Shown one piece after another: positions 5,388-30,183 of a DNA stretch of 38,647 nt. The notes beneath the pieces are model-generated. The model was not told the DNA's origin, searched no databases, and was given only the letters and a program-made list of their open reading frames with translations. This DNA comes from Candidatus Moranbacteria bacterium GW2011_GWF2_35_54 (GTDB taxonomy: Bacteria; Patescibacteriota; Minisyncoccia; Moranbacterales; UBA9337). How positions within the stretch are numbered: the first letter of the stretch is position 1; each line of letters starts with the position of its first letter. Both the position numbers and the translations under genes were made by a program. The stretch lies in contig LBQR01000004.1 of NCBI GenBank assembly GCA_000990945.1, positions 1 to 38,647 of the forward strand, in the 5' to 3' direction.

Positions 5388-8204
5388 ATGGACGCATTAT
5401 TTTCTTTTTTAAATCATTTTAATTATCTTTTGCTTTTTTATATCCCCATCGGCATCATTGGATTTTGGCGCTGGAGTGTTTGGATTATTCGAAAAATAAT
5501 TTCTCTTTTTTATCGTCCGCCCCAGGGAGATTATCAAACCACTCTTTCCATCATTACTCCGGTTTATAATGAAGATCCGGGAATGTTTCAACTGGCCTTG
5601 CAGTCTTGGAAAATCAACCAGCCGGATGAAATTATTGCTGTGATTGACTATACAGACAAAAGTTCAATTGAAATTTTCAAAGAATTTTCAAAGAATTTTT
5701 CCGGTGCCAAATTAATCGCCACCAAAAAACCTGGCAAGCGCCCCGCCCTAGCCGATGGCGCTCGCACAGCCACAAGTGAAATTATCGCCTTTGTTGATAG
5801 CGACACTATCTGGAGCCCGGATATTAAAGACGACCTACTGGGTCCCTTTGCCGACACTGAAGTTGGCGGACTGGTAACCAGGCAAGATATTTTAAAGCCC
5901 GATACTCTGGCGCGAAAATTATTTAAAATTCTTTTAGACGACCGCTATCTGTTTGAATATCCTTTTCTCGCTACCGTAAGCGACGCTATGCTTTGTATCT
6001 CTGGACGAACTGCCGTCTATCGCCGAATCGCGATCATTGATGAATTAAAAAAGCTCGAAAATGAAAAGTTTTGGGGCAAAAAAATGATTAGTGGCGATGA
6101 TAAATCCCTTACCAATTTTATTCACGCCAAGGGCTGGAAAACTCGCTATCTAAAAAACGTTACAGTTTACACCAATGGCACGCCAGACATCGTCAGCTAC
6201 CTCAAACAAAAAATACGCTGGACCAGAAACGGTTTGCGTTCTGATTCCCGGGTTTTATTGAGTGGATGGCTTTGGAAAAATCATAAAATATTAGCTCTTC
6301 ACATGCTGGACAAATTAGTTTCGCCCGTAACACTTCTGATTGGCCTTTCTTATTTCATAATCTCGCTTTATTTCGGCCACTGGCAAATCGCTCTTATTAT
6401 TGCCATTTGGTGGATTTTGAGCCGCATCATAAAAATATTTCCCCACCTCAGAGAAAAGCCTGCTGACATTTTTATCTTGCCACTCTACATCATCACTACT
6501 TTTGCCATCGCCGTAATTAAAATTTATGCTTTAGTCACCATCGATAAACAAAGTTGGATTACTCGCTGGGATAGAAGCCGTTTAAAAAGTTTTACTTTTT
6601 TAGAAAGCTTCGCAACTTACATAGCAACTTTTTCTATGGTTTTTGGAATATTTTTCATTATTTTTTCTTACAAAAATACCACTTTAAAAATTGTTTCGCT
6701 CCAAGAGTTAGAGGCATCAACACTTCAAAGAAATAATCTTAAAAATAAAAATAAACTTCCTTCAATTTTTACACCAGAAAAACCGCGCCCCGCTAGCGCT
6801 GAATTGGAAAGCCAAGGAATCGAACTTGCCAAGGAAAATCAATCCGATCCTTACGGCTATTACATCTCAAAAATCGACGAAACTTTGCCTTTATTAGAAA
6901 AAAGATTTAATTTAATCTCAACGGGGAAAATTTTAAACGCCGATACAAAAGCGCCCATTCCAAGATTCACAATTCTTAGCCCCGGCACAAAAGTTGCTAT
7001 TGCCATAAAAGATTTGCACAGTCCCATCAGTCTTAATTTATTAAACGTTTTTGCCAAGCCCATAAACGTTACCTATGATGCGCCTAGCAACACAATTTTT
7101 GTAAAACAGGGAGGAAGTGTCGCGACACTCGGCAGAATAAATCGCGCCCTCGCTCTGGAAAATAAACATCTTCTCCAGCAGCTATCTCCAGGGGAATGGA
7201 TTTTGCGGGCCAATCTTTATATCGGCAAAGATGTAACTTTAATCTTAAATAGTCCTGAGACAAATTATTTAAAATTAAAAAGCAACCGCGATGATTTTGT
7301 CTGGCTTCGCTCCGAAACTGGCAACATGCTTTTTTCCAAAACAAAAATTACCTCTTGGGACGAGCAAAATAACACGCCTGATTTTAATTATGCAAATGGC
7401 CGAGCTTACATCACTGCCAAAAACAGCGGGCGCATGGACATCCTTAATTCAGAGCTTGCTTACCTCGGCTATGCCGGACTGCCCAAGCGTGGCGGACCAT
7501 TTGGCGGTTCCTATGGAGTTTCTTGGAAAATCAAAAGCCAAGGATTGCATGACCGCTTGCTTACCGGCGTAGTAACTGGCAGCAAATTTCACAATAACTA
7601 TTTTGGAGCTTATACTTTCGGCGTAACGGGAATAGTTTTTTCAAAAAACGAATTTTATGACAACATCGAATACGGCCTAGATCCGCACGACGATTCTAAT
7701 AATTTATTAATTGAAAATAATCTAGCTTATCAAAATGGCAATCATGGAATAATTCTTTCCAAGCGTTGTTTCGATAATGCCATCGTTGGCAATATCTCTT
7801 ACAATAACCGTTTGCATGGCATAATGCTGGACCGCAGTTCTAATAATAATCTCGTTCAAAAAAACACAATCTACGGCAATGTGGATGGCATTGCAATCTA
7901 TCAGTCCAATAGAAATATTATTTTGGATAATAATATCCATAACAATATCCGTGGCATCCGGTTGAATGAGGGCGCCCGGGAAAATTTCTTAAAAAATAAT
8001 TCTATCACCAAAAACAGCAATGGTTTCTATATCTACGATCAAGCCGAGAAAAATATTCTGGCAAATAATTCTGTTTTGGATAATAAGATTGGAATTACGT
8101 TAAAAAATGCCAACCATAATATCTTTCTTGATAATTTCAAAACTCTTGAAAATACCAAGGATGGCGTTATAGCAAAAGATGCTTATGAAAACAATATTCA
8201 GTAA
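5388..8204 (+). CDS. Fusion of Alg8-like membrane glycosyltransferase (GT2) and AlgG-like parallel beta-helix epimerase
   Basis: Residues 1-430 form a processive GT2 synthase. Membrane helices occur near 5-35, and the catalytic domain contains SIITPVYNED, the DxD motif D137-S-D139, G236-DD and the Q274-KIRW motif typical of cellulose, hyaluronan and mannuronan synthases. Further helices follow at about 305-425. Residues about 490-938 are a right-handed parallel beta-helix with repeated 'N..I..N....N..GI.L' coils. They carry D765-P-H-D768, the signature of AlgG mannuronan C5-epimerases, in the context YGLDPHD...HGIIL. In Pseudomonas these activities are separate proteins (Alg8 in the inner membrane, AlgG outside it). 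Here the helix would follow the last membrane segment and face outward (inferred). A hydrophobic segment near 410-430 precedes the linker. The 3' end overlaps the next gene by 26 bases, so translation is probably coupled. The GT2 call is certain; the exact polymer is inferred. Confidence 0.88.
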   Translation: MDALFSFLNHFNYLLLFYIPIGIIGFWRWSVWIIRKIISLFYRPPQGDYQTTLSIITPVYNEDPGMFQLALQSWKINQPDEIIAVIDYTDKSSIEIFKEFSKNFSGAKLIATKKPGKRPALADGARTATSEIIAFVDSDTIWSPDIKDDLLGPFADTEVGGLVTRQDILKPDTLARKLFKILLDDRYLFEYPFLATVSDAMLCISGRTAVYRRIAIIDELKKLENEKFWGKKMISGDDKSLTNFIHAKGWKTRYLKNVTVYTNGTPDIVSYLKQKIRWTRNGLRSDSRVLLSGWLWKNHKILALHMLDKLVSPVTLLIGLSYFIISLYFGHWQIALIIAIWWILSRIIKIFPHLREKPADIFILPLYIITTFAIAVIKIYALVTIDKQSWITRWDRSRLKSFTFLESFATYIATFSMVFGIFFIIFSYKNTTLKIVSLQELEASTLQRNNLKNKNKLPSIFTPEKPRPASAELESQGIELAKENQSDPYGYYISKIDETLPLLEKRFNLISTGKILNADTKAPIPRFTILSPGTKVAIAIKDLHSPISLNLLNVFAKPINVTYDAPSNTIFVKQGGSVATLGRINRALALENKHLLQQLSPGEWILRANLYIGKDVTLILNSPETNYLKLKSNRDDFVWLRSETGNMLFSKTKITSWDEQNNTPDFNYANGRAYITAKNSGRMDILNSELAYLGYAGLPKRGGPFGGSYGVSWKIKSQGLHDRLLTGVVTGSKFHNNYFGAYTFGVTGIVFSKNEFYDNIEYGLDPHDDSNNLLIENNLAYQNGNHGIILSKRCFDNAIVGNISYNNRLHGIMLDRSSNNNLVQKNTIYGNVDGIAIYQSNRNIILDNNIHNNIRGIRLNEGARENFLKNNSITKNSNGFYIYDQAEKNILANNSVLDNKIGITLKNANHNIFLDNFKTLENTKDGVIAKDAYENNIQ

Positions 8205-9504
8205 AAAAATTTACACCCAGCTGTTTCTCTCTTTTTTAATTATGCTAATTTTTTCCGCTATTGGCGTCCTAATTCTCAGAAAGACTCAACAATTGGAAAA
8301 AGAACGTTTTTTCGCTGGAGAACTTCAAATCGATACCATTTCAGATTCGCGCGCGCTGGGTTATTCCGGCCAAAGAAAGCTTGTTCAAGACAGCGCGGGA
8401 AATATTTTTGTCGGCTACAGAAAAGATTACCAGAAAAATGCAGAAATCTTTATCGCGAAAATTTCCCAAACCCTATCTGATTGGCGCATCTCCGGCACCG
8501 AAAAACCAATCATCTCCATTGAAAGAAATAATGACCAGCGCGTCCCTTCCTTGGCAATTGATGCGAAAAATACTCTGCATGTTGTCTGGTATGGCTCCGA
8601 CACAGAAAACAAAAAAAATAATCGCCAGATAAAATACTCCCGCAAATCTTCAGACGCTGAAAATTGGGAAAGCTGGCGCAACATCGCCTATGTCAGCGGC
8701 TATGAAAATGATGAACTTTGGCAAGAGCATCCAATGCTTTTGGCTGGAAAAGACGATACCCTCTATGTCGCTTGGGAGGGGAAGGATGAAGAAAATGAAA
8801 AACAGCAGATCAAATTTAGCAAATCAAATACTGGCGGAGCCGTTTGGACAAAATGGAAAAATATTTCTCCCTCAAAAAATAATACCCACTCGCGACCCGC
8901 TTTGATTGAAGACAAAAATGGAAAACTTTATTTATTTGCTTATTCATCTTTGGGAAATGAAGATAATCTGCAACAGATCCAATATGCATCTTCCTCAGAT
9001 CAAGGAGAAACTTGGACCGCTTGGCAAGCAATCTCTGATTCCTTTTTTGACTCCAGGCACATCAGTGTGACTATTGATAAGCTGGAAAAAATACATGTTG
9101 TCTGGAGAGCTCAAACGATGATTGATGGACCAAGCCAAATAATTTACCGCAATTTTTATGACGACCGCTGGTCCGAAATTGAAATCGTTTCTCCTTCAGA
9201 AAATTACCAATTTTTTCCCAATATTGGCACCAATCAATCTGGCGCAATTTATGTTTCTTGGATGGAAAGCCCGGATCCAGCCGAATTTCCCCGAGAAAAT
9301 CCAACTGGCAGTCTGGGATTAATTTCTTTTTTGAAAAAAGAAAGGTTTCAGCCTCCATTCAAAATTTCCGAAAAAAATAATATTCTTTATCCCAATCTAA
9401 GCGAAAAAAATAACCTTGATAAATTTGTTCCGGTTTTTTATGCCCAACAACTAAACGAAAAAGAACTTAACTTAAAACTTAAATTTTTCGACAGTAGCAA
9501 ATAA
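8179..9504 (+). CDS. Membrane-anchored BNR/Asp-box beta-propeller protein
   Basis: An N-terminal signal-anchor (about residues 13-33, LFLSFLIMLIFSAIGVLIL) is followed by an extracytoplasmic domain. That domain has at least five similar blades: 'LHVVWYGSD...IKYSRKSSD', 'LYVAWEGKD...IKFSKSNT', 'LYLFAYSS...IQYASSSD', 'IHVVWRAQ...IIYRNF' and 'IYVSWMES'. Asp-box-like S-x-D-x-G-x-x-W occurs as SSDQGETW. The fold is that of sialidase-type propellers, but I do not see the sialidase arginine triad, so a binding or scaffold role for the polysaccharide is as likely as hydrolysis. The start overlaps the fusion gene; a second ATG two codons on (8185) is possible. Confidence 0.75.
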   Translation: MLMKTIFSKKIYTQLFLSFLIMLIFSAIGVLILRKTQQLEKERFFAGELQIDTISDSRALGYSGQRKLVQDSAGNIFVGYRKDYQKNAEIFIAKISQTLSDWRISGTEKPIISIERNNDQRVPSLAIDAKNTLHVVWYGSDTENKKNNRQIKYSRKSSDAENWESWRNIAYVSGYENDELWQEHPMLLAGKDDTLYVAWEGKDEENEKQQIKFSKSNTGGAVWTKWKNISPSKNNTHSRPALIEDKNGKLYLFAYSSLGNEDNLQQIQYASSSDQGETWTAWQAISDSFFDSRHISVTIDKLEKIHVVWRAQTMIDGPSQIIYRNFYDDRWSEIEIVSPSENYQFFPNIGTNQSGAIYVSWMESPDPAEFPRENPTGSLGLISFLKKERFQPPFKISEKNNILYPNLSEKNNLDKFVPVFYAQQLNEKELNLKLKFFDSSK

Positions 9505-12745: not shown

Positions 12746-12860
12746 ACCACGAAGAATTACTTCGTCATCTCGTAATTCACGCAAAATTCGCATAATGTCT
12801 AAGCGACGCTGCGAGACAAAAAACTGCCTTTAGCTGAACTGTACTTTTATAATTTTCGTC

Positions 12861-13055
12861 TTATTTATTATCCGTATTGATTCCAAAAAGCTTATACCCC
12901 AAACAAAATCCTGTCATTGCAGTAAAAAGCATAACAACCGCCAAAACATATGCGACCACACTCAATACGCCAGTAAAAATATAAGCCCCTAAGATAAAAA
13001 ATATAACTGCCAGAACTACTCTAATTATGCGATCTAGACCACTTTCGTTTTTCAT
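12861..13055 (-). CDS. DUF2892 (YgaP-like) small membrane protein
   Basis: The protein has 64 residues with two membrane helices separated by a short turn (about 10-30 and 33-52). The family features are visible: an N-terminal amphipathic GLDRIIRVVLAV and the motif TGFCLGYKLFGI with its cysteine. DUF2892 domains often occur beside rhodanese domains or thiol-related genes. It starts 18 bases after the CsoR-family gene, so it is the third gene of the minus-strand operon driven from the operator at 14366-14400. Confidence 0.85.
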   Translation of the reverse strand: MKNESGLDRIIRVVLAVIFFILGAYIFTGVLSVVAYVLAVVMLFTAMTGFCLGYKLFGINTDNK

Positions 13056-13073
13056 ATGATTATTAATAAAAAA

Positions 13074-13337
13074 TTAACTTATTTTAAATAATGTTTTTAG
13101 GTACGACTCATCGATAGTCTTCTTTCCTTGCTGTTTACACGCAAGGTCATTTTTCAACAGCTCCACACCCAGATTAGAAATAGCCGATCTAATGGCCGAT
13201 ACTTGCATGATAATATCAACGCATTTCTTTTCTTCTTTAATCATGCGATGAATACCCCTTAGCTGTCCTTCAATACGAACAATTCTATTGGATAGTTGTT
13301 CTCGTAATTCTTTTTCCGTTTTTTTTGCTTTTGCCAT
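13074..13337 (-). CDS. CsoR/FrmR/RcnR-family metal- or thiol-sensing repressor
   Basis: The protein has 87 residues with the all-helical fold and motifs of the family: RIEGQLRGIHRMI, then C39 in EEKKCVDIIMQVSAIRSAIS. The copper-sensing triad of CsoR is Cys-His-Cys. Here C39 is conserved, the His position is Asp (D64, in LLKNDLACK), and the second cysteine, C67, is one residue early. Loss of the histidine argues against a normal Cu(I) sensor and is more like thiol-sensing members (CstR, FrmR-type); this is inference. It lies between two DUF2892 genes and 1.0 kb from a typical CsoR-type operator that covers two divergent promoters, so it most likely represses both its own operon and the RND pump. 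Confidence 0.9.
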   Translation of the reverse strand: MAKAKKTEKELREQLSNRIVRIEGQLRGIHRMIKEEKKCVDIIMQVSAIRSAISNLGVELLKNDLACKQQGKKTIDESYLKTLFKIS

Positions 13338-13382
13338 AAAATTAAATCTTTATGATTTTATTATACACCATAATGTAAAAAT

Positions 13383-14273
13383 TTAGCCACGAATTAAATA
13401 CACTTTTACAAAGTTTTTTTTAAGCTCTCCTGCCATTGTTGGCAATTGATCTGACTTTCCATCCTTGGCAAGCTGTAAAATTTCATCCAAATTTTTGCGA
13501 ATTACTTGAATCTCAACGTCATTGGCCTCTTGTTCAACTGCTAATAATTTATTGTTGGCTTCATCATATGTTGCGATTACTTTTGCCGCATCTTTTGCAT
13601 TTGCCCCATCGAGAACTTTTTCCATTGAATCATGAAAATCCACCAATGTTATTGCAAGCATAGAAAAACCATTGCGCTTCAAGATGTCCTGGGTAATTGG
13701 ACGCACTTTTTCAAATTCTAAGTGCATCGCTTTTAAATCCCCATTATACACACCATCCTTTGCGCCCAGAATAATTTCCTCAATCTTTTTTAAATCAGCA
13801 TCAAATGACACGTCCCCTCGCAAAGAATAAGGGTGGTATACTAAATATTTGTTTTCAAAAATTGCGTATGAAACAACTAGTTTATCGTAATTTTCTTTAG
13901 ACTCCATTCTCTTCCCTTGTCCAGTCTCAAAAAGTGTCTGCTTGTAATCCTTGTTCATTGCATTAAAATCCTCCACAAATATTTTCTTGGTTAAAAAAAC
14001 ACTTCCATATGCTCCCGCAGAAAGTAAAATAAACGTGTAAACAAAAAGAAATAAAAATTTTCCTTTGGTTATTTTTTTAACCGAATATAACGACTCTTTA
14101 CCAATCAAGACGTACAGCGGACAAAATCCAATTATCGCAAACACACCAATAGCCATAGCCCCGATAAGAAGCCCGACTTGCCAAATTCCACTTACCCAAA
14201 AAAACGCACCTAGAAACAAGATCGCTGAAATGGCTATTTGAATACTCCTTTCAATGATTCCTTCGTTTTTCAT
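13383..14273 (-). CDS. DUF2892 domain fused to a membrane helix and an extracytoplasmic helical domain
   Basis: Residues 1-65 repeat the two-helix DUF2892 unit, including IGFCPLYVLIGKES. A third membrane segment follows at about 72-95 (FLFLFVYTFILLSAGAYGSV). The remaining 200 residues are soluble and strongly helical, with a pattern (NEFE/ILEL..) suggesting a four-helix bundle; I do not recognise a family for it. By topology this part is probably outside the membrane. It is the first gene of the minus-strand operon, 45 bases ahead of the CsoR-family regulator, and starts about 90 bases from the predicted transcript start. A sensory or substrate-binding role for the pump's ligand is possible but unproven. 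Confidence 0.75.
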   Translation of the reverse strand: MKNEGIIERSIQIAISAILFLGAFFWVSGIWQVGLLIGAMAIGVFAIIGFCPLYVLIGKESLYSVKKITKGKFLFLFVYTFILLSAGAYGSVFLTKKIFVEDFNAMNKDYKQTLFETGQGKRMESKENYDKLVVSYAIFENKYLVYHPYSLRGDVSFDADLKKIEEIILGAKDGVYNGDLKAMHLEFEKVRPITQDILKRNGFSMLAITLVDFHDSMEKVLDGANAKDAAKVIATYDEANNKLLAVEQEANDVEIQVIRKNLDEILQLAKDGKSDQLPTMAGELKKNFVKVYLIRG

Positions 14274-14365
14274 ATGTTTGTCTTAAATATATTAATTAAT
14301 TACTAAATATAATAGGTTAAACTTAATATTGCTTTTGCTCAAATAAAATCTATTCTCCTACATAC

Positions 14366-14395
14366 TTGACAGTATATACCCCCCTGGGGTATTAT
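14366..14395 (+). promoter_or_regulatory. Promoter of the RND efflux operon
   Basis: A perfect -35 TTGACA (14366-14371) and a -10 TATTAT (14390-14395) are separated by 18 bases. The spacer contains the CsoR-type operator. The transcript would start near 14402, about 57 bases ahead of the adaptor gene. Confidence 0.75.
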
Positions 14396-14400
14396 GTCAA
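14371..14400 (-). promoter_or_regulatory. Divergent promoter of the DUF2892-CsoR operon
   Basis: On the minus strand a perfect -35 TTGACA (14400-14395) and a -10 TATACT (14376-14371) are separated by 18 bases. It overlaps the plus-strand promoter almost completely: each -35 abuts or shares a base with the other's -10. Two polymerases could not occupy the site together. Confidence 0.7.
14376..14392. promoter_or_regulatory. CsoR-family operator
   Basis: ATACCCC-CCT-GGGGTAT matches the known style of CsoR/CstR sites, which are G/C-tract inverted repeats flanked by AT. It sits exactly in the shared spacer of both promoters, so a bound tetramer would block both. The obvious candidate ligand is the regulator encoded at 13074-13337. 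Confidence 0.8.
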
Positions 14401-14458
14401 ATACATAGTCTCGAAAGATTTTTTATTTACAATTAATTAATAACCCATTTAAAAAAAT

Positions 14459-15574
14459 ATGCAAAAGTTTTTCATTAAACAGCGTTACTCCATATTTGGA
14501 GTAATTACCATAGTTATTCTAGTCACATTTTTATTCTCAAAGATGAATAGTAACAGCGCTAACAAAAATATTCCAACAGTTCAAGTGGTAAAAATTATTA
14601 CAGCGCATGCGGCTGACAAAAGTATACCATTAGAAATTTCCGGATTTGTTCGCGGAGAAAATAGGGCTGATATTTCCCCAGCAAGTAGCGGGAGAATTTT
14701 ACATATATTCAAGCATGAAGGAGAAACAGTAAAAAAAGGCACTGTCCTTGCAACAATCGATGCAAATGTTTCTAACGCTCAAATTGCAGCAGCGTCAGCA
14801 AATGTTGATGCATTAGCTAAAACATTAGTTGATAGCAAAAAATATTATGACCAACTTGTCGATCAAGCTAAAAGTGACTCTGGCTCAAACAATGAGGCAA
14901 CGAAGAGTGCTAAGCGTGGCCGTGATCTCCAAATTCAAGCAGCTAAAGATCAGCTAATTGCAGCTCAAGGAGCGTTGGGTGTCGCCCAGGCTAATAAAGA
15001 TAATTCAACCCTCGTTGCTCCATTTTCGGGAACAATAACAACCATTTATGGACATGAAGGCGGATTTGCAAACTTTTCTATGCCACTTGTCAGTATCAGT
15101 ACTCAAAATAGCAAGGAGCTGGAAACTTATGTTTCAGCCACCAATGGACAGAGTGTTACCGTTGGAGCAATTGCAACATTACAAACCTCAAGTGGACAAC
15201 CTGTCTCTGGTGTAGTAACTACCGTTTCAGCTGGCAGTGATACACAAAGTCTAAAGACACTCCTACGCATACACATAGACGATACTTCTGATACTATTTA
15301 CTTGGGGGATTTTTTGCATGGGCAGATTTTAATTCCAAGCACCAAAGAGGCAGTTTCGATTCCAAGAAACGCAGTCGTTTCTCGCGGAGGAGATCAAATT
15401 GTTTTTACTCTAGATGATAATAATATTGCCAAAGAACAATCAATAAAAATAAGCTCTGAACATAATGGTCTAATTGATGTGACTCAAGGTTTAGAAATAA
15501 ATCAAAAAATCGTAACAGAGGGTCAACAATATTTAATCAATGGATCAGTCACAAAACCTTATGAATCAAATTAA
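14459..15574 (+). CDS. RND efflux periplasmic adaptor (membrane-fusion protein, HlyD/AcrA type)
   Basis: An N-terminal membrane anchor (about residues 13-30) is followed by the first half of a lipoyl-like domain (GRILHIFKHEGETVKKGTVLATID), an alanine/glutamine-rich coiled-coil hairpin (about 100-175) and the second lipoyl half (STLVAPFSGTITTIYGHEGG). A beta-barrel region follows to the C-terminus. The adaptor would link the RND pump at 15576-18809 to the outside. Its stop lies one base before the likely pump start, so the two are translationally coupled. Expression is probably controlled by the operator at 14376-14392. Confidence 0.93.
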   Translation: MQKFFIKQRYSIFGVITIVILVTFLFSKMNSNSANKNIPTVQVVKIITAHAADKSIPLEISGFVRGENRADISPASSGRILHIFKHEGETVKKGTVLATIDANVSNAQIAAASANVDALAKTLVDSKKYYDQLVDQAKSDSGSNNEATKSAKRGRDLQIQAAKDQLIAAQGALGVAQANKDNSTLVAPFSGTITTIYGHEGGFANFSMPLVSISTQNSKELETYVSATNGQSVTVGAIATLQTSSGQPVSGVVTTVSAGSDTQSLKTLLRIHIDDTSDTIYLGDFLHGQILIPSTKEAVSIPRNAVVSRGGDQIVFTLDDNNIAKEQSIKISSEHNGLIDVTQGLEINQKIVTEGQQYLINGSVTKPYESN

Positions 15575-15575
15575 T

Positions 15576-18500
15576 ATGTCAAACCAAGAGCATCCAAAAA
15601 AATTAAGCTTAGCTGGACGCATGGCTAGTCTTTTTGTAAAAAATAAAGAGCTAAATATTTTAGTTATGCTTTTTATCGTAGCTTGGGGCATCGGTAGTTT
15701 CATCTTGATGCCAAAAAACTACAATCCTGATATTGTTGCGCCAGCTTTTACTATCACGACTGCTTTTCCTGGAGCGACTGCTCAGCAAGTTCAAGAGCTT
15801 GTTACTCGTCCTATGGAAGATGCGATAAGTGAGCTTCCTGATATCGATCAACTTATTTCTCATTCATTTGATGGGGGCCAAAGCGTTGTGATGGTGCAAT
15901 TTAAAGTTGGCACTCCCGCTGAAAATGCAAAAATTTCACTCTCTCAAAAATTTAAGGATAACATGTTTCAAAAACCAATTGGTGCCAGCGATCCATCTAT
16001 GATAACGTTGGATCCTGATGATGTTCCAATAATTTCCATAGCACTGACATCCGACACTCGCTCTCCACAAGCCTTACGAAATTTAGCTTTCGACTTAGCT
16101 GATGAACTAAAATTAGTAACTGGTACCTCAAAAGTAGCTGTAGTTGGCGGGCTTAGCAATAATCTACAAATAGAATTAAATGCCGAAAAATTGTCCGCCT
16201 ATCATTTAGCTGTTTCAGATGTAATTAACACACTCAATACTTCCAACGGCATATATACAGCCGAACCCTTAAAAAATAATAACGATACAGAAACATTGAG
16301 AGTTAACGGCAGCATAGCATCGACCGAAGATGCTGCGCATATCGTCCTAATCCCAAGTCAGGATAAACCCATCGCCCTTGGCGATGTGGCAATAATTACG
16401 CAGGGACCTGGGGAGATAACTAAAAATGTACACTTCACAGAAAAAAATTCTGACCCAAAAAATGCAGCCTACGTTACGATTGCAAAAATCAAAGGTGCCA
16501 ATATAAGTTCGGTTACAAATGCTGTTCGAGAAAAACTTGCCACTGCAAAAAAACAAGGTCAATTTTCATCAGTCAATTTTTCAGTCTTGAGAGATGATGG
16601 CGAAACTGCCCATGATGAAATATTTACTCTCACCAAACATCTTATTTTATCAATCGTTATTGTGGTAATCATTTTAATGGCATTTTTAGGAATTAGAAAC
16701 TCCTTAATTGTGGCTATTTCTATTCCACTTACCCTTTTGACTTCTTTTGGAATTGGGCTCCTGGCTGGTCAAACTGTAAATCGCATTACGCTTTTTGCAC
16801 TCATTTTGGCCTTAGGACTTCTCGTTGATGATGCCATTGTGATTATTGAAAATGTGCACAGAACAATAAAAAATAATCCTGGCGGTCGCAAATCAACTCT
16901 AATTATCCAAGCAGTTGATGAGGTTGGCGTGGGAGTATTTATGTCCACAATTACAATACTCCTCGCTTTTATTCCTATGGCATTTGTAAGTGGCATGATG
17001 GGTCCATATATGAGCCCTATTCCATTTTTCGTATCTGTAACTCTTTTGGTTTCATTGTTTTTTGCCTTCACTATCAATCCAGCGCTTACTGGAATGTTTT
17101 CTTCGCACAAGGCTGAGGAAAAAGAAAATGTGTTTGTGAAATCAATTCATAAAATTGAAAATCACTATGCCACATTAATTGGTAATCTCGCAAAAAATAA
17201 GCGTAAAAAAAATATCGTATTAATCTCAGCTGGAGTTTTGCTTTTTCTCTCTTTGCTTTTGCCCCTATTTAAAATAGTACAATTCCGTATGTTACCGAAA
17301 GCCAACAAAGAACAATTTTACATTTATTTAAATATGCCAAATGGAACCACTTACACCAAAACAAATGAAGTATCCACTGAGTTGGAAAAAGCATCGCTTA
17401 ATTCAAAAGAAGTTACAAGTGTTGAGAGCTTTATCGGTACAGCACCCATATCTGATTTTAATGGACTCTTCAAAGGAAGTTTTATGCGCTCTCAGGAGAA
17501 TCAAGCAACCTTAAAAATAAATCTTACACCCCACACCCAACGTAGCGAAACATCAGAGCAAATCGCTCTGCGCCTACGTGACACTTTAAACCAAGAAGTT
17601 CTCACTCATGTTGGTGATGCAAAAATAATAGTTGTTGAAGACCCGCCAGGGCCACCAGTGCGCTCAACTTTTTTCCTAAAAGTCCAGGGTAATGATCAGC
17701 AGCTCTTGGACTCTACTGCCAAAGATTTAGCACAAATATCTAGTAGCATCGCTGGCATTGTCGATTTAAATACATCTTCATCTCAACGATCCATTGAAAA
17801 ACAATATAAAGTTGATATTGAAAAAGCTGGTCGAATTGGGGTTGCACCAGCGGTAATTATTGAAACTCTTCACGCGGCGCTATCAGGCATAAATGTTGCG
17901 CGCTATCAAACAACTCTGGCTAATACTGATCGTCAAGCTGAACAACAATTCGTAATTTTGCGCATGAAGCAGTCTGATCGGACCGATATTAATGACCTTT
18001 CTCATATCACTGTAAAAAGTACTCTTGGCGCCACTGTGCCCATATCGGAGTTATTAATTGAGGAACCTCTTGCCGCCCAAAGTGAACTTGCCACAGACGC
18101 GAGACAACAAGTTATATATGTTAGCGGAGAAATGGGAGCCAGAAGTGTTATGTATGCTGTCTTTGACCTCTTTCCTAAACTCTTTGGATATCATCTCAAT
18201 GATGGCACTGGACACATAACATCATGGTCGCCACTAGGAGTAACTTACACAAATGCAGTTGGTCAAAGTGTAGATGTTCGCATTGATGGAGAGTGGAAAC
18301 TTACACTTGAAATTTTTCGTGATCTTGGCACAGCTATGGCAGTAGCATTACTACTTATATATTTTGTATTGGTTATTCAAATTCGTTCTGTTGTGGTGCC
18401 TCTTCTTATTATGGCAACTATTCCACTAGCATTGATTGGGGTGCTTGTTGGATTTGCAGTCCTGGGCGCAACTAAAGGTACATATTTCAATGCCACATCC

Positions 18501-18809
18501 ATGATTGGAGTTATTGCGTTGTCTGGTATCGTAGTGAAAAACGCTATCATATATCTGGCTTATCTTGATGAGCTTAAAGAGCGTAAGTTGCCACTTACTG
18601 ATGCTTTAATGGAAGCAGGACGTGTCAGATTACTTCCGATTCTTCTAACATCCCTTACTGCAATCTTGGGATCACTCACTATTATTGCCGACCCAGTTTG
18701 GGAAGGTTTGGCTTGGGCAATTATCTTTGGGCTTTCAGTTTCAACTATTCTAACGCTTATTATATTCCCCCTATTATATCAAACATTTGAAGGAAAAAAG
18801 TGGGATTAA
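15576..18809 (+). CDS. RND-family efflux pump (AcrB/MexB-like)
   Basis: The protein is about 1077 residues long, near the usual 1030-1050, with twelve predicted membrane helices and two large loops. The proton-relay motif LLVDDAIVIIENVHR (the two Asp of helix 4) and the helix-10 lysine in SGIVVKNAIIYLAYL are both present, so the pump should be functional. It exports substrates by proton exchange together with the adaptor. The open frame extends back to 15540, but starts at 15540 or 15561 would overlap the adaptor gene; the ATG at 15576, one base after the adaptor stop, is preferred. No outer-membrane channel gene is nearby. The substrate cannot be told from sequence alone. Confidence 0.95.
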   Translation: MSNQEHPKKLSLAGRMASLFVKNKELNILVMLFIVAWGIGSFILMPKNYNPDIVAPAFTITTAFPGATAQQVQELVTRPMEDAISELPDIDQLISHSFDGGQSVVMVQFKVGTPAENAKISLSQKFKDNMFQKPIGASDPSMITLDPDDVPIISIALTSDTRSPQALRNLAFDLADELKLVTGTSKVAVVGGLSNNLQIELNAEKLSAYHLAVSDVINTLNTSNGIYTAEPLKNNNDTETLRVNGSIASTEDAAHIVLIPSQDKPIALGDVAIITQGPGEITKNVHFTEKNSDPKNAAYVTIAKIKGANISSVTNAVREKLATAKKQGQFSSVNFSVLRDDGETAHDEIFTLTKHLILSIVIVVIILMAFLGIRNSLIVAISIPLTLLTSFGIGLLAGQTVNRITLFALILALGLLVDDAIVIIENVHRTIKNNPGGRKSTLIIQAVDEVGVGVFMSTITILLAFIPMAFVSGMMGPYMSPIPFFVSVTLLVSLFFAFTINPALTGMFSSHKAEEKENVFVKSIHKIENHYATLIGNLAKNKRKKNIVLISAGVLLFLSLLLPLFKIVQFRMLPKANKEQFYIYLNMPNGTTYTKTNEVSTELEKASLNSKEVTSVESFIGTAPISDFNGLFKGSFMRSQENQATLKINLTPHTQRSETSEQIALRLRDTLNQEVLTHVGDAKIIVVEDPPGPPVRSTFFLKVQGNDQQLLDSTAKDLAQISSSIAGIVDLNTSSSQRSIEKQYKVDIEKAGRIGVAPAVIIETLHAALSGINVARYQTTLANTDRQAEQQFVILRMKQSDRTDINDLSHITVKSTLGATVPISELLIEEPLAAQSELATDARQQVIYVSGEMGARSVMYAVFDLFPKLFGYHLNDGTGHITSWSPLGVTYTNAVGQSVDVRIDGEWKLTLEIFRDLGTAMAVALLLIYFVLVIQIRSVVVPLLIMATIPLALIGVLVGFAVLGATKGTYFNATSMIGVIALSGIVVKNAIIYLAYLDELKERKLPLTDALMEAGRVRLLPILLTSLTAILGSLTIIADPVWEGLAWAIIFGLSVSTILTLIIFPLLYQTFEGKKWD

Positions 18810-20025: not shown

Positions 20026-23000
20026 TTATTCTTCAAACATCTCCTCATCTCTCATTGCACTTTCTTTAATTTCCCCTTCAGCATATTCCTTAATATCCTT
20101 ATAAAATTCATATACAGGTGTGCCAATCTGGTATTTTTGCATAAGTTCATAGGATGCATCTCTCATTTTTATATCCTCAGGCATTGGTTGGCCAGCAGTG
20201 CCACTTTTGGAACGTGAATTAGCTCCCCAAAATAAATTACTTCTTACGCTTTTATAGCATTCTTCTCCTAAGTTTTTAGCTGCATTTAATAATTTTTCAA
20301 CAAAATCAGGATTCTCAAAAATAAAATCATGATATGCATGATGTATTAATGATCCTATTCCCATTATTTTTGATTTATCCTGGGAATCAATCGATTCCGT
20401 GAGAATACCCAAGGTAGTTTCATTAAAATTTCCAGTAAGAACTTTAAACAATTTTGCATACGCATGATTATCTTTCTTATACTCACATGCAACATCCCTA
20501 ATTTTTCGGAGGACTTTTTCGTAATCAGGCGAGTCTTTTAGTGGAGAAACTTGTTTATGCAGTGAATGACCAAATGGCTCATACGTGTATTTTTTTCTTT
20601 TCTCGCCTATCTTAACCCTATTCAATAAAAAATCGATAAACATCTCCGGAAATTTTTCGCTAACATATTTTAGGAAATTTTCAATCCAGTAATGTCCTAT
20701 TTTTTCTACTTGAGTCAGTTTCGAAAAAATCATAGCGATTTCCTCTTTATCAAGAGAATCTGGATCTATAGCATACGCCTTGTTAATCTGTTCAACATAT
20801 TCTTCAGCCACTTGTTCATCTTTCCCAACTTTAGCCAATTTCATAAGTTTCATTCCTAGATTGCGATCATTTTTTCCTATGCGTCCAATTGCCCTAACAG
20901 CCAATCTCCTTACAGTTGGATTTCTGTGCGTAATTAACTTCTTTATATTTTCAATATCTAGTTTGTTTATTTTTTCCACAGAAACTCTATATCCATAATA
21001 ACTTGCCATTGAAAACAATAACTTCTCATCCTGAATTTCAATAGCTTTTCTGGCAATTTTTGATGAAGCGTCATGATCTGTATCATCCATTCCATACAAC
21101 AAAAAATCAACCTGCTTTCTAAGTAATGCTTTCTTGCTTCTTATCGTTATGGTACACAATTTATTTGCATAATCAGGATACAATTTTGCGAGCTCTGACA
21201 GAAACATGCTAGAGCTATAAAAGCTGGTGCTCAATTCAAGCTCCTTGAAAATTTCCTCAATTTTTTTAAATCCTATTTCAGCTTTTGGATATTCTTTTAT
21301 AAATTTTTTAGCTGTAGACTTTTGAAAATTTAGATTAATTTTTTGTCTGTCCTCATATGAATATTTTTCATCTTCAGCTAACCATTCTTTCCCATCGGGT
21401 CGCATTAAGCATTCGGTTAAATTTGTCTCAAATGATTTAGACAAGCTTTCGAATAATTTGCGAGCGCCATCTCTTACTCCATTATTTCTACTTCTCTTAA
21501 TATACCAAACAATGTCGTCTTTTATGGCTATATGAACCAAGGGTTCTTTTCTACTTTTAGATATTTTCCTTAAACTATCCAATGCTGCTAATTGTTCACT
21601 TTCCCATTTTTTATGTTCCTCTTCTGAAATTGTTCCATTAAAATGTGCAGTTGGCTCAGCTAAGGCCTTGTGCAAACTTGAAATCGCACGTAAAGCGATA
21701 GATAGATCACTTTTTAAAGCATATTCAGTAGCAATATTTAATGCTTCATTCCTTATTGTAGCCGTATTTTCCTTACTTACCATGAAAGGATGAAAGGTTA
21801 TTTTATTTCCTTCATATGTATCAGAATGAGAAGACTTTTCAAATAGCGGATCTAATACATCAAAGGTAGAATGGGTATATTTGTGAGCATCATCATTTTC
21901 TAGCCATTTTTTTACAGCCTCGAGCATTAGTTTATTAACTTGCACAATTTTACCTATGTCATATTTAGCCAAGCCCTCGAGAACTCTCATAGCATGCTCG
22001 GGATGTTGATTTGTGGCTCTTTTATCATTTCTTCCTAGCTCCCAAAGGATATTGGAACAACGGGGCAAATATTCAAGATGATAAGATATTTTTTGAAGCA
22101 AGGCGGGCAATTTTGTCAGACAATCCTTATGGCTAAAGCCGTATAGTTTAGAAAATTTTTTATCTTCAGGTTTAATTGCTGGATTATGTATAACATGCTC
22201 AATAATGCGCAGTGTTTGTTCAGGCTGATAATATGCAACCGATTCTAATTTCTTAAGAATCTCGCTTCTTTCGTAATGATTTCCATTTTTGATACTTTCT
22301 TCTATTTTTTTCCAGATATCTTCCAATAAATTAACCTTTCCTTTCGACCTGCTCACTCTCCAGTCAAGCTCACCTAAATTTTGCAGAATTTCTTCAAAAC
22401 ATCTTTCCTGAAAATGATCAAAGGCTTTTTGCGCAAAACCATTCGGCTTCCCGGATACGGTTAGACAAGCTCTGGAAACTATATGATCAGCAAGTACGTC
22501 TGGAATTATTCTGATCATGCGTCCTCGTCTTACTAACACGCCATCAGTCTCCAGTAAATCCAAAATATTTATAACGTCAGTTTTGTCTAATGGTAAAAAA
22601 GATGCCAAAAGATCAAGCACAGTTTCATCTGATGGATTTATTGGCTGTATAATAGCCAGTATATTTATAAAGCTCTTTAGAATATTTGTGTCATAACCTT
22701 CTTCTATTTTCCCCAATGCAACGTCACTAAATCTATCCAGGACAATTCTTGTAAAATTCTCATCCTGCTCCAATAATTCAAGCGGGATGTCCTTTTGAAC
22801 AATTAACTTACCACCAACGACTAATATCAAGGGGCAATCTTTTGCTTGTTTTGCCAAATGCTCGATCAATCTCTTATTTGCGCTTCCAAGAACCTGTTCT
22901 GCCAACTGCTTTGCTTCTTCTAAAGAAAGTTTTTCAACCTTCTCATTTTCAATAATAGAAGGATCATAATTATTTTGGATAAAAGTAGATCTAACGGGAG

Positions 23001-23916
23001 TAGATCCTTGTGGACGAGTAGAAAGTACGAATTTGATGCTTCTAGGATGTGCTTTTAGTAAATTGATGATATTCGCTATATCCTCACGACGATGAGCGTC
23101 ATCAATCACAATAACATATGACTCTAATTCTAGATCTTTAATATCTTCTGGCCTTACCGACATTTCATTCTGTAAAAATAGCAGTTTTACTCCAGGATGC
23201 TTTTCGCTGAATTTGCCTGCAAATTCCTTTAATACCTTTGTTTTTCCAATGCCGCCTATGCCTTCCAAAATAAACACAGCCCTGTCTGATTCAACAAAAT
23301 CATCAAGTTTTTTGATAATCCCATCCCTGCCCACTAAATCCCATGCCTGATTGAAAAGATCGTTTTTATTTATCAATCTTTCAAAATAGTATTCTGAAGA
23401 AATAAAGGGAGAAACGCTTTTCAGGCCAAGAAATTTTTCAGCCCACCTATGACCAAAGTGATTAACAACCAGCCTTCTTTGATTTTCAGGAGATAAGCCA
23501 GACTTAATTTTTCTGCAAATATCATCAGCATCAAGCACATCCCACTTTTTGTTATTTCTGCAGACATCTCTGACTCCAGTTCCCACCAATGAGGATACGA
23601 GTATGGTGTAACTATCAGCTTTATAGGTAGTGTCCTTAATAGCTTTCTTCGCATTGGCTTTTGTAAAGGATTGATATTCCTTGCTTTGGTAAGTTATATG
23701 CTTACCATCCTGCTTATCCACAAACATATCTATGCCTCTCTGCTTACTTCCCTTAACTCCATACTTGTGAACTTTTGTAGCAGATCCTGTATGTAACGCA
23801 TTAATAAAATCAATGCAAAAAGATTCAAATTGTTCCCATGAAATAAAATTCAATGGAAGAAGCTCATCGTGCGATATTATTGGCTCAGGAATTAATCCCT
23901 TTTGTTTTTTAGGCAT
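20026..23916 (-). CDS. Nuclease-STAND NTPase with helical repeat C-terminus (Avs-like antiphage candidate)
   Basis: Residues about 20-165 look like an Mrr-type PD-(D/E)xK nuclease: E31 region, then G61-I-D63 and Q77-S-K79 (the D...QxK variant). Residues about 170-420 form a P-loop NTPase with Walker A GIGGIGKT (219-226), Walker B VIVIDDAH (D272, D273) and the sensor STRP (R301), as in STAND/NACHT proteins. About 430-1296 is all-helical, with HEAT-like units near 980-1060 (NPTVRRLAVRAIGRIG). This order (nuclease effector, STAND switch, repeat sensor) and the size match AVAST/Avs antiviral proteins, which sense phage proteins and then cut DNA. It stands alone, next to a Fic enzyme. Family assignment is by architecture only, and the sensed ligand is unknown. 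Confidence 0.85.
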   Translation of the reverse strand: MPKKQKGLIPEPIISHDELLPLNFISWEQFESFCIDFINALHTGSATKVHKYGVKGSKQRGIDMFVDKQDGKHITYQSKEYQSFTKANAKKAIKDTTYKADSYTILVSSLVGTGVRDVCRNNKKWDVLDADDICRKIKSGLSPENQRRLVVNHFGHRWAEKFLGLKSVSPFISSEYYFERLINKNDLFNQAWDLVGRDGIIKKLDDFVESDRAVFILEGIGGIGKTKVLKEFAGKFSEKHPGVKLLFLQNEMSVRPEDIKDLELESYVIVIDDAHRREDIANIINLLKAHPRSIKFVLSTRPQGSTPVRSTFIQNNYDPSIIENEKVEKLSLEEAKQLAEQVLGSANKRLIEHLAKQAKDCPLILVVGGKLIVQKDIPLELLEQDENFTRIVLDRFSDVALGKIEEGYDTNILKSFINILAIIQPINPSDETVLDLLASFLPLDKTDVINILDLLETDGVLVRRGRMIRIIPDVLADHIVSRACLTVSGKPNGFAQKAFDHFQERCFEEILQNLGELDWRVSRSKGKVNLLEDIWKKIEESIKNGNHYERSEILKKLESVAYYQPEQTLRIIEHVIHNPAIKPEDKKFSKLYGFSHKDCLTKLPALLQKISYHLEYLPRCSNILWELGRNDKRATNQHPEHAMRVLEGLAKYDIGKIVQVNKLMLEAVKKWLENDDAHKYTHSTFDVLDPLFEKSSHSDTYEGNKITFHPFMVSKENTATIRNEALNIATEYALKSDLSIALRAISSLHKALAEPTAHFNGTISEEEHKKWESEQLAALDSLRKISKSRKEPLVHIAIKDDIVWYIKRSRNNGVRDGARKLFESLSKSFETNLTECLMRPDGKEWLAEDEKYSYEDRQKINLNFQKSTAKKFIKEYPKAEIGFKKIEEIFKELELSTSFYSSSMFLSELAKLYPDYANKLCTITIRSKKALLRKQVDFLLYGMDDTDHDASSKIARKAIEIQDEKLLFSMASYYGYRVSVEKINKLDIENIKKLITHRNPTVRRLAVRAIGRIGKNDRNLGMKLMKLAKVGKDEQVAEEYVEQINKAYAIDPDSLDKEEIAMIFSKLTQVEKIGHYWIENFLKYVSEKFPEMFIDFLLNRVKIGEKRKKYTYEPFGHSLHKQVSPLKDSPDYEKVLRKIRDVACEYKKDNHAYAKLFKVLTGNFNETTLGILTESIDSQDKSKIMGIGSLIHHAYHDFIFENPDFVEKLLNAAKNLGEECYKSVRSNLFWGANSRSKSGTAGQPMPEDIKMRDASYELMQKYQIGTPVYEFYKDIKEYAEGEIKESAMRDEEMFEE

Positions 23917-24119: not shown

Positions 24120-25064
24120 TTATTTTCTTACCCTTTCGCGACTGTCCATATATCTCTTCAATGCATCTTTAGACGAAAGCCAATTGCGGCCTTCTTTGTG
24201 TGCTTCAAGTTTTCCGCTACGCGCCAAAAGATTGAGATATTTTTCTGTAAATTTTGATTTCTTAGCCAATTCAGCTAGAGAAATAAATTTTTCATTACCT
24301 TTTCTGCTTGGTGCTAATATTTTCAAATAAATATCAAGAGTTCTTTCGACCGCTCTACCGATAAAATTTACAAATAAAGCATAATCACCCTTATCTGCTA
24401 AAGACAATGTTTTATAATATCTTTTACGATCATTCTTCATTACAATTACTAAGGGGAATCCAGCTTGCATAAGAATAATATTCATAGCCAAACGTGAAGT
24501 CCTACCATTACCATCAAAGAATGGATGAATGTAAACCAACTTGTGATGCAATATGCTCGCCAATTCAACTGGGTGCATTTTTTTCTTATTATCTCCGACC
24601 CAGTCGATTAGATTACTCATCATTTTGGGAATTTCCAATGCCTCGGGCGGTCGATGATCAGCACCACCAATTATCACGGCGCTATTGCGATATCTTCCAG
24701 CCCATTCTTTATCAATATTTTGCTGAACTATTTGATTAAGCGATCTGATTAAATTTTCTGAAAAAGTGTTTTTCTTATTAGAGTCAACCATATCATAAAG
24801 ATATTCCAACGCTTCTTGATGATTCTTAGCTTCAAGATGATCTTTGAGCGGTTTCCCTTTTATGGTTAACCCCTCATTTATCACCAAATAAGTTTCTTTG
24901 AGCGTCAAGCTATTGCCTTCAATCGCATTAGAATTGTAAGTCATCTCTACTTCAAACTGCTCCTTAAGTTTTTTAACCGCAGAAACTGGAAGTGGACGAA
25001 ACGAATTAAGCAATGTCAATTTTTCATCAATTCTTTTTTGAATTTTTTTGTCTAAATATTGCAT
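24120..25064 (-). CDS. Fic family enzyme with N-terminal inhibitory motif and C-terminal winged helix
   Basis: The catalytic motif H180-PFFDGNGRTSR is complete (HxFx[D/E]GNGRxxR), so transfer of AMP or another nucleotide monophosphate to a protein hydroxyl is expected. S45-NAIEG matches the [S/T]xxxE[G/N] inhibitory helix, here placed N-terminal as in class II Fic proteins, so the enzyme should be self-inhibited. Residues about 255-305 (LAELAKKSKFTEKYLNLLAR) look like a winged helix. The protein has 314 residues with no signal peptide. It lies about 200 bases upstream of the STAND NTPase on the same strand, possibly in a defence-type region. The target is unknown. Confidence 0.92.
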   Translation of the reverse strand: MQYLDKKIQKRIDEKLTLLNSFRPLPVSAVKKLKEQFEVEMTYNSNAIEGNSLTLKETYLVINEGLTIKGKPLKDHLEAKNHQEALEYLYDMVDSNKKNTFSENLIRSLNQIVQQNIDKEWAGRYRNSAVIIGGADHRPPEALEIPKMMSNLIDWVGDNKKKMHPVELASILHHKLVYIHPFFDGNGRTSRLAMNIILMQAGFPLVIVMKNDRKRYYKTLSLADKGDYALFVNFIGRAVERTLDIYLKILAPSRKGNEKFISLAELAKKSKFTEKYLNLLARSGKLEAHKEGRNWLSSKDALKRYMDSRERVRK

Positions 25065-28388: not shown

Positions 28389-28898
28389 TCAACAGTTGTA
28401 TTCTATACTATTTCTAGCATAAAAACAACTGCAAGCAAACATTTTCAACTTGCTAGTCAACCTTTTCAGCTCCTCTTTATCGCCTCTTTTTTCTGCTTCT
28501 TTGATTTCATTTATAATAATCGCGCTTTTTCCCCTGATGACTTCCCGTTTTAGCTCTACAAAATATTGATCAACTACCCGCCATCTATCTTTAACCGATA
28601 CGATTTCTTCATTCTTTTCGCAATTTTTGAAATACAATTCTCGCAAAAATTTCTTTTGTTCTAAATTATCTAATCCATCCAATAACTTTTCAAAATTAAA
28701 ATCGTATAGTTTCCCTTTATCCAGAATAATTTCCACTATCTTTGGATTATTAAAATATTCGCTTATTTCTCCTTTGTATTTCCGAGTAGCCTCTTTCCAG
28801 ATGCTATTATCGCTAATAAATGTCCCCATTATTTGAATTTGGATATCTTTAATTTTGTCATAACTGTTTTTGTTATTGCTTGGATTGATATAGTTCAA
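28389..28898 (-). CDS. dnaG: DnaG primase, C-terminal (helicase-binding) part in a different frame
   Basis: The 169-residue frame starts at TTG 28898 and overlaps the end of the main dnaG frame by 26 bases, shifted by one base. Its content ([44 protein letters not shown]; then a helical tail) resembles the DnaB-binding C-terminal domain of DnaG. Removing one T from the TTT at 28897-28899 would join the two frames directly. It may therefore be an error or a real frameshift; a separate translated subunit starting at TTG is also possible. The tail ends in a cysteine-rich stretch ([17 protein letters not shown]). Confidence 0.75.
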
Positions 28899-30183
28899 AT
28901 TGTGCTTCCCTTAAAGCACTTTCCGATATATTCAATCTCTCCGCCACTTCTCTCATCCAATGCTCCCGCTCAATTTTATTTGAAAAACTGTTGATCAAAC
29001 CGGACAATTCTTCAATTATTTTTTTCTTATCTTCAATATCTGATTTGTTTCTCCCGCGCAAAGTTTTCTCAATAAAATAATTCATTGCCACAACTGAGCC
29101 GTCGATTGCTTTTATGAATTTTTGCACATCTTCTTTCACTGCATCCGCCGCATCTTTGCCCTCATCAATTGACACTATAAAAACATTTAATTCTCTGTCA
29201 AAAGCTAACTGGGCGCTGCGTTTAGCCGCTTTTTGCCCGGCTTCATCCATGTCAAAAAACATTCTTATATTTTTTGTATACCTCTTAATGATACTCAACT
29301 GTTCCAACGTGAGAGCTGTGCCAGAGACAGCTACGGTGTTTTTTATTCCAGCCTGATTGGTGGCAATAACATCCATCTGACCCTCTACTAGAAGAATCCA
29401 ATCTTTTTCTTTGGCACTCATCTTAGCTTTATCTATTCCATACAAAACATTGCTCTTATGGTAAACTTCAGTTTCAGGAGTGTTAATATATTTAGCCTGA
29501 GACTCATCTTCTCCAGGAACAATTCTAGCTGAATATCCGATTACTTTCCCAACTGGATTAGTAATTGGGAACATTATTCTATTCCTAAATCGATCATAAA
29601 AATTTTCTATTTCTTGGCTTTTCCCCTCTTTATGGATAACCAATCCCGCCCTTAAAATGTCTCCTATTTTATAATTTCTGCCTACCAAAAATTGCGCGAT
29701 ATTTCTCCAGCCGTCAGGAGCATACCCCAACCTAAAATCACGCACTGTCGATTCTTCCAATCCTCGTCCTTTGAGATATTCTAGAATTTTTTTTCCGCCT
29801 TCGGTTTCCCAAAGTTGCTTTTCGTAAAACAGAGTTGCTTCTTCTAAGATATCTTCTATTTTATTTTTTTCTAAATTAGTTATATTTTCTCTTGCGCTAT
29901 ACTTAGGCAATTCCACTCCTGTTTTTTGAGCTAAGTTTTCCAAGGCCTCCCTAAAACTTAATCCTTCTATCTCCATCAAAAAGCCAAAAGCATCTCCGCC
30001 CTTGCCACAACCAAAGCAATGCCAAACCTGCTTATCCTCGCTGACAGAAAAAGATGGAGTTTTTTCATTGTGGAATGGACAACATGCTTTCCAATTATTG
30101 CCTGCTTTTTGCAAGCGCACATATTCTCCGATTAAATCCACAATATTTAATTTAGCTTTTATAGCTTCTATTTCTTGGCTCAT
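28873..30183 (-). CDS. dnaG: DNA primase DnaG, zinc-finger and catalytic parts
   Basis: The CHC2 zinc finger (C-PFH ... C-FGC, about residues 36-60) is followed by the RNA-polymerase domain and the TOPRIM domain: LLVEGQMDVIATNQAG with its catalytic glutamate and MFFDMDEAGQKAAKRSA with the DxD aspartates. The next region (IEREHWMREVAERLNISESALREA) is the usual link to the C-terminal helicase-binding domain. At residue 436 the frame stops, and the remainder continues in a shifted frame (28389-28898). The protein makes RNA primers for replication. It lies upstream of rpoD, in the same order as in many bacteria. Confidence 0.95.
   Translation of the reverse strand: MSQEIEAIKAKLNIVDLIGEYVRLQKAGNNWKACCPFHNEKTPSFSVSEDKQVWHCFGCGKGGDAFGFLMEIEGLSFREALENLAQKTGVELPKYSARENITNLEKNKIEDILEEATLFYEKQLWETEGGKKILEYLKGRGLEESTVRDFRLGYAPDGWRNIAQFLVGRNYKIGDILRAGLVIHKEGKSQEIENFYDRFRNRIMFPITNPVGKVIGYSARIVPGEDESQAKYINTPETEVYHKSNVLYGIDKAKMSAKEKDWILLVEGQMDVIATNQAGIKNTVAVSGTALTLEQLSIIKRYTKNIRMFFDMDEAGQKAAKRSAQLAFDRELNVFIVSIDEGKDAADAVKEDVQKFIKAIDGSVVAMNYFIEKTLRGRNKSDIEDKKKIIEELSGLINSFSNKIEREHWMREVAERLNISESALREAQFELYQSKQ

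Follow-up and report, generated by a model that had tools for sequence, protein, structure and literature searches.

A probable thiol-responsive CsoR-family regulator linked to DUF2892 genes and an RND pump in a Candidatus Moranbacteria genome

We analysed a 38,647-nucleotide stretch of DNA from Candidatus Moranbacteria bacterium GW2011_GWF2_35_54 (LBQR01000004.1; hereafter the window); it forms contig C4 in an assembly of 1.22 Mb. In the window, the gene for a CsoR/DUF156-family regulator is flanked by two genes for DUF2892/YgaP-like transmembrane (TM) proteins, DUF2892L and DUF2892s, and an operon encoding a membrane fusion protein (MFP) and an RND permease is transcribed divergently from them (Table 1). 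The regulator is probably a CsoR-fold dithiol sensor-repressor that responds to disulfide formation, persulfides or electrophiles, that is, to thiol chemistry in the broad sense. This reading draws on the residues of the regulator, the gene neighbourhoods of its clade and a predicted operator found both at the pump and at thiol-redox genes elsewhere. L numbers below denote loci and G numbers genomes.

The regulator scores 70.1 bits against the DUF156 model (PF02583; cut-off 22.8 bits), which places it in the CsoR/RcnR family. Its AlphaFold (AF2) monomer model has a mean predicted local distance difference test score of 81, and all of its best fold matches are DUF156 proteins; the top Foldseek match is 4m1p, and the closest solved structures are CsoR, InrS, CstR and FrmR, with a probability of 1.00 but E >0.001. 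As the original prediction had stated, the regulator keeps C39, has Asp64 at the position of CsoR His61 and has its second cysteine, C67, one residue early. The C39–C67 spacing is 28; of 66 other CsoR-type sequences compared, 53 have a spacing of 29 and 61 have His at the ligand position. In the monomer model, C39 opens and C67 nearly closes one long helix. Formaldehyde sensing by FrmR needs an N-terminal Pro2 facing Cys35 (PMC5016687), and the N terminus of the regulator reads MAKAKK. The His ligand of the nickel and cobalt sensors RcnR and InrS, in their C-H-H or C-H-C sites, is Asp in the regulator.

Relatives of the regulator were sought in the class, in the order and in named genomes; the named relatives are Candidatus Moranbacteria/Moraniibacteriota metagenome-assembled genomes. 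The relatives form a clade of Patescibacteria whose members share a C-x27-C signature and end in KxIDExYLKxLFK. Both cysteines are present in 43 of 43 distinct members and the His in none, its position being taken by Asp in 35, Glu in six, Gln in one and Ser in one; the second Cys lies at an offset of +28 in 40 members and +27 in three. In a tree that included structural references (copied from solved-structure alignments, except for RcnR and Staphylococcus aureus CstR), a branch with 100/99 support sets the clade apart from CstR, FrmR/RcnR and the canonical patescibacterial CsoR. The original prediction had named a place inside the copper-sensing CsoR clade as the result that would speak against it, and the regulator falls outside the canonical patescibacterial copper clade. 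Of the phylogeny it proposed among the CsoR, CstR, FrmR and RcnR groups, the distinct clade emerged but the deeper order did not: approximately unbiased (AU) tests on about 100 columns tie, with a p-AU of 0.776 for CstR as sister group and 0.79 for canonical CsoR.

The genes next to the clade's regulators point to thiol redox. By our count, a gene for thioredoxin (Trx), a thioredoxin reductase (TrxR)-like flavoprotein or both lies directly downstream at 35 of the 38 distinct clade loci, and WCxPC and C[AS]TCD, the catalytic motifs, are intact; among the comparison loci, 6 of 65 have such a gene within 1.5 kb, and these six include one clade duplicate and a related two-Cys protein (L019). For non-clade CsoR-type loci, the figure is thus about 5 of about 63. 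Some clade operons also hold an SBF/ACR3-like permease or glutamate dehydrogenase. The remaining three loci (the window, L033 and L153/L171) are of the RND type, and their regulators (window, L033 and L153) form one sub-clade with 100/99 support. Genome G076 suggests that both contexts can occur at one locus, with a Trx–regulator operon divergent to MFP–RND genes; the locus is pieced together from two contigs whose ends overlap by 141 bases with slightly different last codons.

Related arrangements were also seen at other loci. Locus L019/L174 (G225, outside the order) encodes a two-Cys CsoR-like protein of spacing 28 on a long branch of unsure placement, with a Trx-x155-TrxR operon and the same operator. 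At L240 (4039–4683; G394, of the window's family), a very divergent CsoR-like protein is followed by thioredoxin, with a ATACCCTATGGGGGTAT site in the promoter; this is possibly an equivalent switch native to the window's family. His-retaining CsoR-type proteins lie near thioredoxin or thioredoxin-reductase-like genes at four loci of Bacillota (L087, L094, L108 and L078), and thiol-linked CsoRs may extend beyond Patescibacteria.

A candidate operator, which the original prediction did not contain, would connect the regulator to both window operons. The palindrome ATACCCCCCTGGGGTAT occupies the common spacer of two face-to-face, overlapping promoters, each of which matches the consensus at 11 of 12 positions, although the promoter scan by itself is not significant. 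The site is the only exact ATACCC-N3-6-GGGTAT in its genome assembly. A chance palindrome was rejected, as chance alone would give 0.01 copies of the core per window and such sites cluster in regulator-positive genomes. The divergent architecture is kept in L033, L171, L191, L224, L227, L228, L230, L233, L235 and L258 (with N4 in L258) and is altered in L232. Promoters of the Trx-type operons carry ATACCC-N5-GGGTAT overlapping the −10 box; of 29 distinct operator-promoters anchored on TTGAC, 28 have the operator starting 26–28 nt past the start of TTGAC. Across the order, 28 of 37 regulator-positive genomes have an exact ATACCCN5GGGTAT, as against 6 of 94 that are regulator-negative (52 and 7 sites, respectively; Fisher 3.5e-15, ignoring phylogeny), and some regulator-positive genomes that lack the exact site have TACTC...GAGTA variants. 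Unrelated matches to the pattern were a tRNA gene (L197, by eye), a site with no clear promoter (L199) and a canonical CsoR–CopA operon (L198).

Predicted operators also occur in trans, at genes for thioredoxin (L193, L226, L232 and L233), glutamate dehydrogenase (L192, L195, L225, L229, L236 and L238), a redoxin-family peroxiredoxin (L196), 6-phosphogluconate dehydrogenase (L234) and, in L165, DUF2892L followed by a small Fe-S ferredoxin. At L195 (4021–4082; G127:C2), two tandem operators flank the −35 box upstream of glutamate dehydrogenase, and L236 and L238 are arranged likewise. The pump subfamily was taken to comprise genomes with an adaptor of 56% or higher identity to that of the window; all 12 are regulator-positive and all 12 have an operator at the pump, with the regulator non-local in nine. 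The next pump homologue (G336, 46% identity, regulator-negative) has a TetR-type neighbour gene and no operator. Because the operator is present at all 12 subfamily pumps and absent at G336, the pump appears to be a standing member of the predicted regulon, and the window arrangement reads as its self-regulated version. The original prediction had the regulator responding to persulfides or to some other compound that reacts with thiols; the thioredoxin-linked loci and the operators at peroxiredoxin, NADPH dehydrogenase and pump genes favour thiol or redox sensing, but do not single out persulfide as the ligand.

We propose the following mechanism. The reduced regulator would bind ATACCC-N4-5-GGGTAT in the divergent-promoter spacer (14366–14400) and silence both its own operon (DUF2892L–regulator–DUF2892s) and the MFP–RND operon. 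Oxidation, persulfidation or alkylation of thiols would cross-link or modify C39 and C67 of the neighbouring protomer (C67'), and the modified regulator would leave the DNA, allowing both operons to be expressed. In relatives, the same clade is predicted to control thioredoxin, thioredoxin reductase, peroxiredoxin and NADPH-supplying dehydrogenases, and these targets make cytoplasmic thiol/disulfide (or reactive-sulfur) stress the best reading of the signal. One branch of this regulon would be the pump, which in the window moves together with a regulator gene of its own as a complete cassette. What the pump removes may be the compound that causes the stress, or an oxidised thiol product.

A special case of this dithiol sensor is a CstR-like sensor of persulfides (reactive sulfur species), in which C39 would attack a persulfide and form di- to tetrasulfide bridges with C67', and the DUF2892 proteins and the pump would handle sulfane sulfur. 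We regard this narrower form as conceivable, though well short of an even chance. Two cysteines without a His ligand are what CstR has, DUF2892 is the TM part of YgaP, and protein persulfides are described as reducible by thioredoxin-like proteins (PMC6196236). However, the targets identified are Trx, TrxR, peroxiredoxin and NADPH dehydrogenases, and among identified neighbours and in-trans targets there is no rhodanese (for which no dedicated search was made), sulfide:quinone oxidoreductase (SQR), coenzyme A (CoA)-persulfide reductase or TauE; the Cys spacing is 28 or 27 rather than 29, and the tree gives no support to monophyly with CstR, which the AU test does not reject (p-AU 0.776).

It is unlikely that the regulator senses a metal or metalloid, with Cu(I), As(III) or Zn bound through C39, D/E64 and C67 and the pump exporting the metal. 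Asp or Glu could serve as a ligand, but within the clade residue 64 may be D, E, Q or S and the position of the second Cys differs by one, which is not what a fixed coordination site would show; a thiol cross-link would accommodate this double variability better. The thioredoxin system is a target of As(III), and an SBF/ACR3-like permease is present in some clade operons; with 69.5 bits against the ACR3 cut-off of 282.8, this permease makes a weak case for arsenite sensing. The pump, moreover, is closer to multidrug than to heavy-metal models, and the window genome encodes a canonical copper CsoR elsewhere, in a different operon. Still harder to credit is an ordinary copper CsoR with degraded ligands and coincidental neighbours, which we consider very improbable: the family is the same and the operator is of a similar type, but the Trx/TrxR linkage recurs across the clade loci, the divergent promoter–operator is conserved in 12 genomes and the clade is separate and well supported. 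A copper CsoR with a substitute ligand was rejected on the residue fingerprint, the separate clade and the gene context.

Several points weigh against a dithiol sensor of this kind. The second Cys is one residue off the CstR register, so the geometry of the proposed cross-link is assumed. About 100 columns do not settle the clade's deeper relation to CstR, FrmR/RcnR and copper CsoR. The genome counts take no account of shared ancestry. G/C-tract palindromes are found throughout the CsoR family, and for this reason a small number of the sites could be those of the same genome's canonical CsoR. The window genome's own thioredoxin and thioredoxin reductase genes are without the operator, so that only the pump/DUF2892 cassette would be under control there.

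The cassette itself appears to have been acquired horizontally. Against L033, from a different family (f2), the window has 82.6% DNA similarity over 12826–18805, stopping at the cassette ends, with protein identities of 91% for the RND permease and 93% for the regulator, and the cassette was not found in the same-genus genome G396. Mis-binning of the contig is disfavoured: the contig's DnaG shares 83% identity with that of G396 (partial, 255 aa) but 50% with that of G223, whereas the cassette's RND permease and regulator are 91–93% identical to their G223 counterparts. These data fit horizontal transfer. The window genome encodes exactly two PF02583 proteins. The second (L046, 7613–9301; G000:C24) is a canonical C-H-C copper CsoR (C..NHLNTC); near it, by eye, are heavy-metal-domain (HMA-like), TauE-like membrane and cupredoxin-like proteins and a CopA-type ATPase, and its promoter contains an operator-like ATACC...GGTAT.

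Table 1 Features of the regulator–pump locus in the window
Feature	Coordinates	Strand	Description
DUF2892s	12861..13055	minus	64-aa YgaP-like transmembrane protein, third gene of operon; PF11127 61.1 bits; 89% identity in L033
CsoR/DUF156-family regulator	13074..13337	minus	87 aa; fingerprint C39-D64-C67; PF02583 70.1 bits
DUF2892L	13383..14273	minus	296 aa, first gene of operon; YgaP-like TM part; PF11127 39.2 bits
MFP-RND promoter	14366..14395	plus	TTGACA-18-TATTAT; predicted operator within spacer
DUF2892L-regulator-DUF2892s promoter	14371..14400	minus	TTGACA-18-TATACT; overlaps opposite promoter; same predicted operator in spacer
Predicted operator ATACCCCCCTGGGGTAT	14376..14392	none	Palindrome with C4/G4 tracts
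RND periplasmic adaptor (membrane fusion protein)	14459..15574	plus	TIGR01730 (RND_mfp) 159 bits, above cut-off
RND permease	15540..18809	plus	PF00873 (ACR_tran) 521.6 bits; closest to multidrug (HAE1-type) models

The coordinates originally given for all five open reading frames were confirmed, although the true start of the RND permease, judging from the starts of relatives, is probably near 15561 (MNQINMSNQ...) rather than the called 15540. The permease scores 436 bits with RND_permease_2 versus 284 bits with CusA/CzcA, both under cut-off, and its top NCBIfam models are multidrug RND permeases, again under equivalog/subfamily cut-offs. An HAE1-type permease and an MFP are present; a search of the 92%-complete window genome for the outer-membrane factor (PF02321) of a tripartite HAE1 system found none. 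Both DUF2892 proteins exceed the cut-off of PF11127 (YgaP-like_TM), 25.3 bits. The C-terminal region of DUF2892L is conserved and all-helical in a 10-member alignment and a structure model, and a fold search with the model of this region gave no usable match. A module following DUF2892 recurs at pump loci (L033, 8187–11385; L232, 4158–8808; L228, 2079–3779), comprising a small 4Fe-4S ferredoxin, a NosR-like membrane Fe-S protein, an extracytoplasmic function sigma factor, a membrane protein and a small Met/Gly-rich exported protein. Elsewhere in the window, DnaG (28873–30183) is 436 aa long, against open frames of ~600 aa for its homologues in relatives; it is possibly truncated or frameshifted. 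A 1296-aa nSTAND-type NTPase with a restriction-like N terminus by eye (20026–23916) adjoins a Fic-domain protein (24120–25064), a possible defence island, and a family 2 glycosyltransferase fused to a NosD/beta-helix region (5388–8204) precedes a BNR-repeat protein (8179–9504).

Stress sensing in ultra-small Patescibacteria is almost unstudied, and the locus offers a definite regulon that can be put to the test, since its operator is compact and its proteins are small and expressible in laboratory E. coli. A more ambitious reading, which we put forward only tentatively and think rather doubtful, is that a Patescibacteria-specific CsoR subgroup, with [DE]xxC in place of HxxxC, is a dedicated thiol-redox regulator of a thioredoxin–NADPH–peroxiredoxin–efflux regulon whose RND branch exports, across the single membrane, a thiol compound that has been oxidised, persulfidated or conjugated to an electrophile. 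If that is true, candidate-phyla-radiation bacteria would have their first defined redox regulon, and the CsoR family a new class of effector. The predicted regulon would widen the effector range of the family towards general thiol redox, and would show a redox regulator capturing a pump and both then being packaged as a transferable cassette. A literature search, whose coverage excluded most subscription journals and preprints, found no paper on the regulator clade, on a thioredoxin regulon under it or on control of an RND pump by a thiol-type CsoR.

Among known systems, the copper CsoRs (Mycobacterium tuberculosis, Geobacillus thermodenitrificans and L046) share with the regulator the fold, the N-terminal Cys and a C/G-tract operator overlapping the promoter. 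Unlike them, the regulator has C39, D64 and C67 in place of the C-H-C copper site (C36, H61 and C65), is without HxxxC, and has no copper exporter or chaperone genes linked to it, its neighbours being DUF2892 and RND-MFP genes or, in relatives, Trx/TrxR. The pump can be compared with TetR-regulated HAE1-type RND pumps of the MtrR/AcrR type, since the related RND–MFP pair of G336 adjoins a TetR-type gene; the window subfamily differs in its predicted CsoR-family thiol-type regulator and in that no outer-membrane factor was found in the window genome.

CstR is the precedent for persulfide sensing (PMC9405070), and YrkD of Bacillus licheniformis likewise (PMC9918477). The CstR group (S. aureus, Streptococcus pneumoniae and Enterococcus faecalis; YrkD) resembles the regulator in its DUF156 fold, its two-Cys sensor without the Cu His ligand and its autoregulated operon, autoregulation being predicted for the regulator. 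It differs in its targets (rhodanese/sulfurtransferase, SQR, persulfide dioxygenase and CoA-persulfide reductase) and in having ENLxxC with spacing 29, where the regulator's clade, separate and well supported, has [ND][DE]xxC with spacing 28 or 27. TTHA1953 of Thermus thermophilus differs in its operator, TACNNTACNNNNGTANNGTA, which has no G/C tract, in its Sox regulon and Cys spacing of 29, in being unlinked to its targets and in having no pump. Its C39/C68 disulfide lowers DNA binding, and it represses the thioredoxin SoxW (PMC10318464). With a CsoR fold, two cysteines, redox-sensitive DNA binding, a thioredoxin gene and further targets in trans, and no metal response found (PMC10318464), TTHA1953 is, by analogy, the closest experimental precedent for the regulator.

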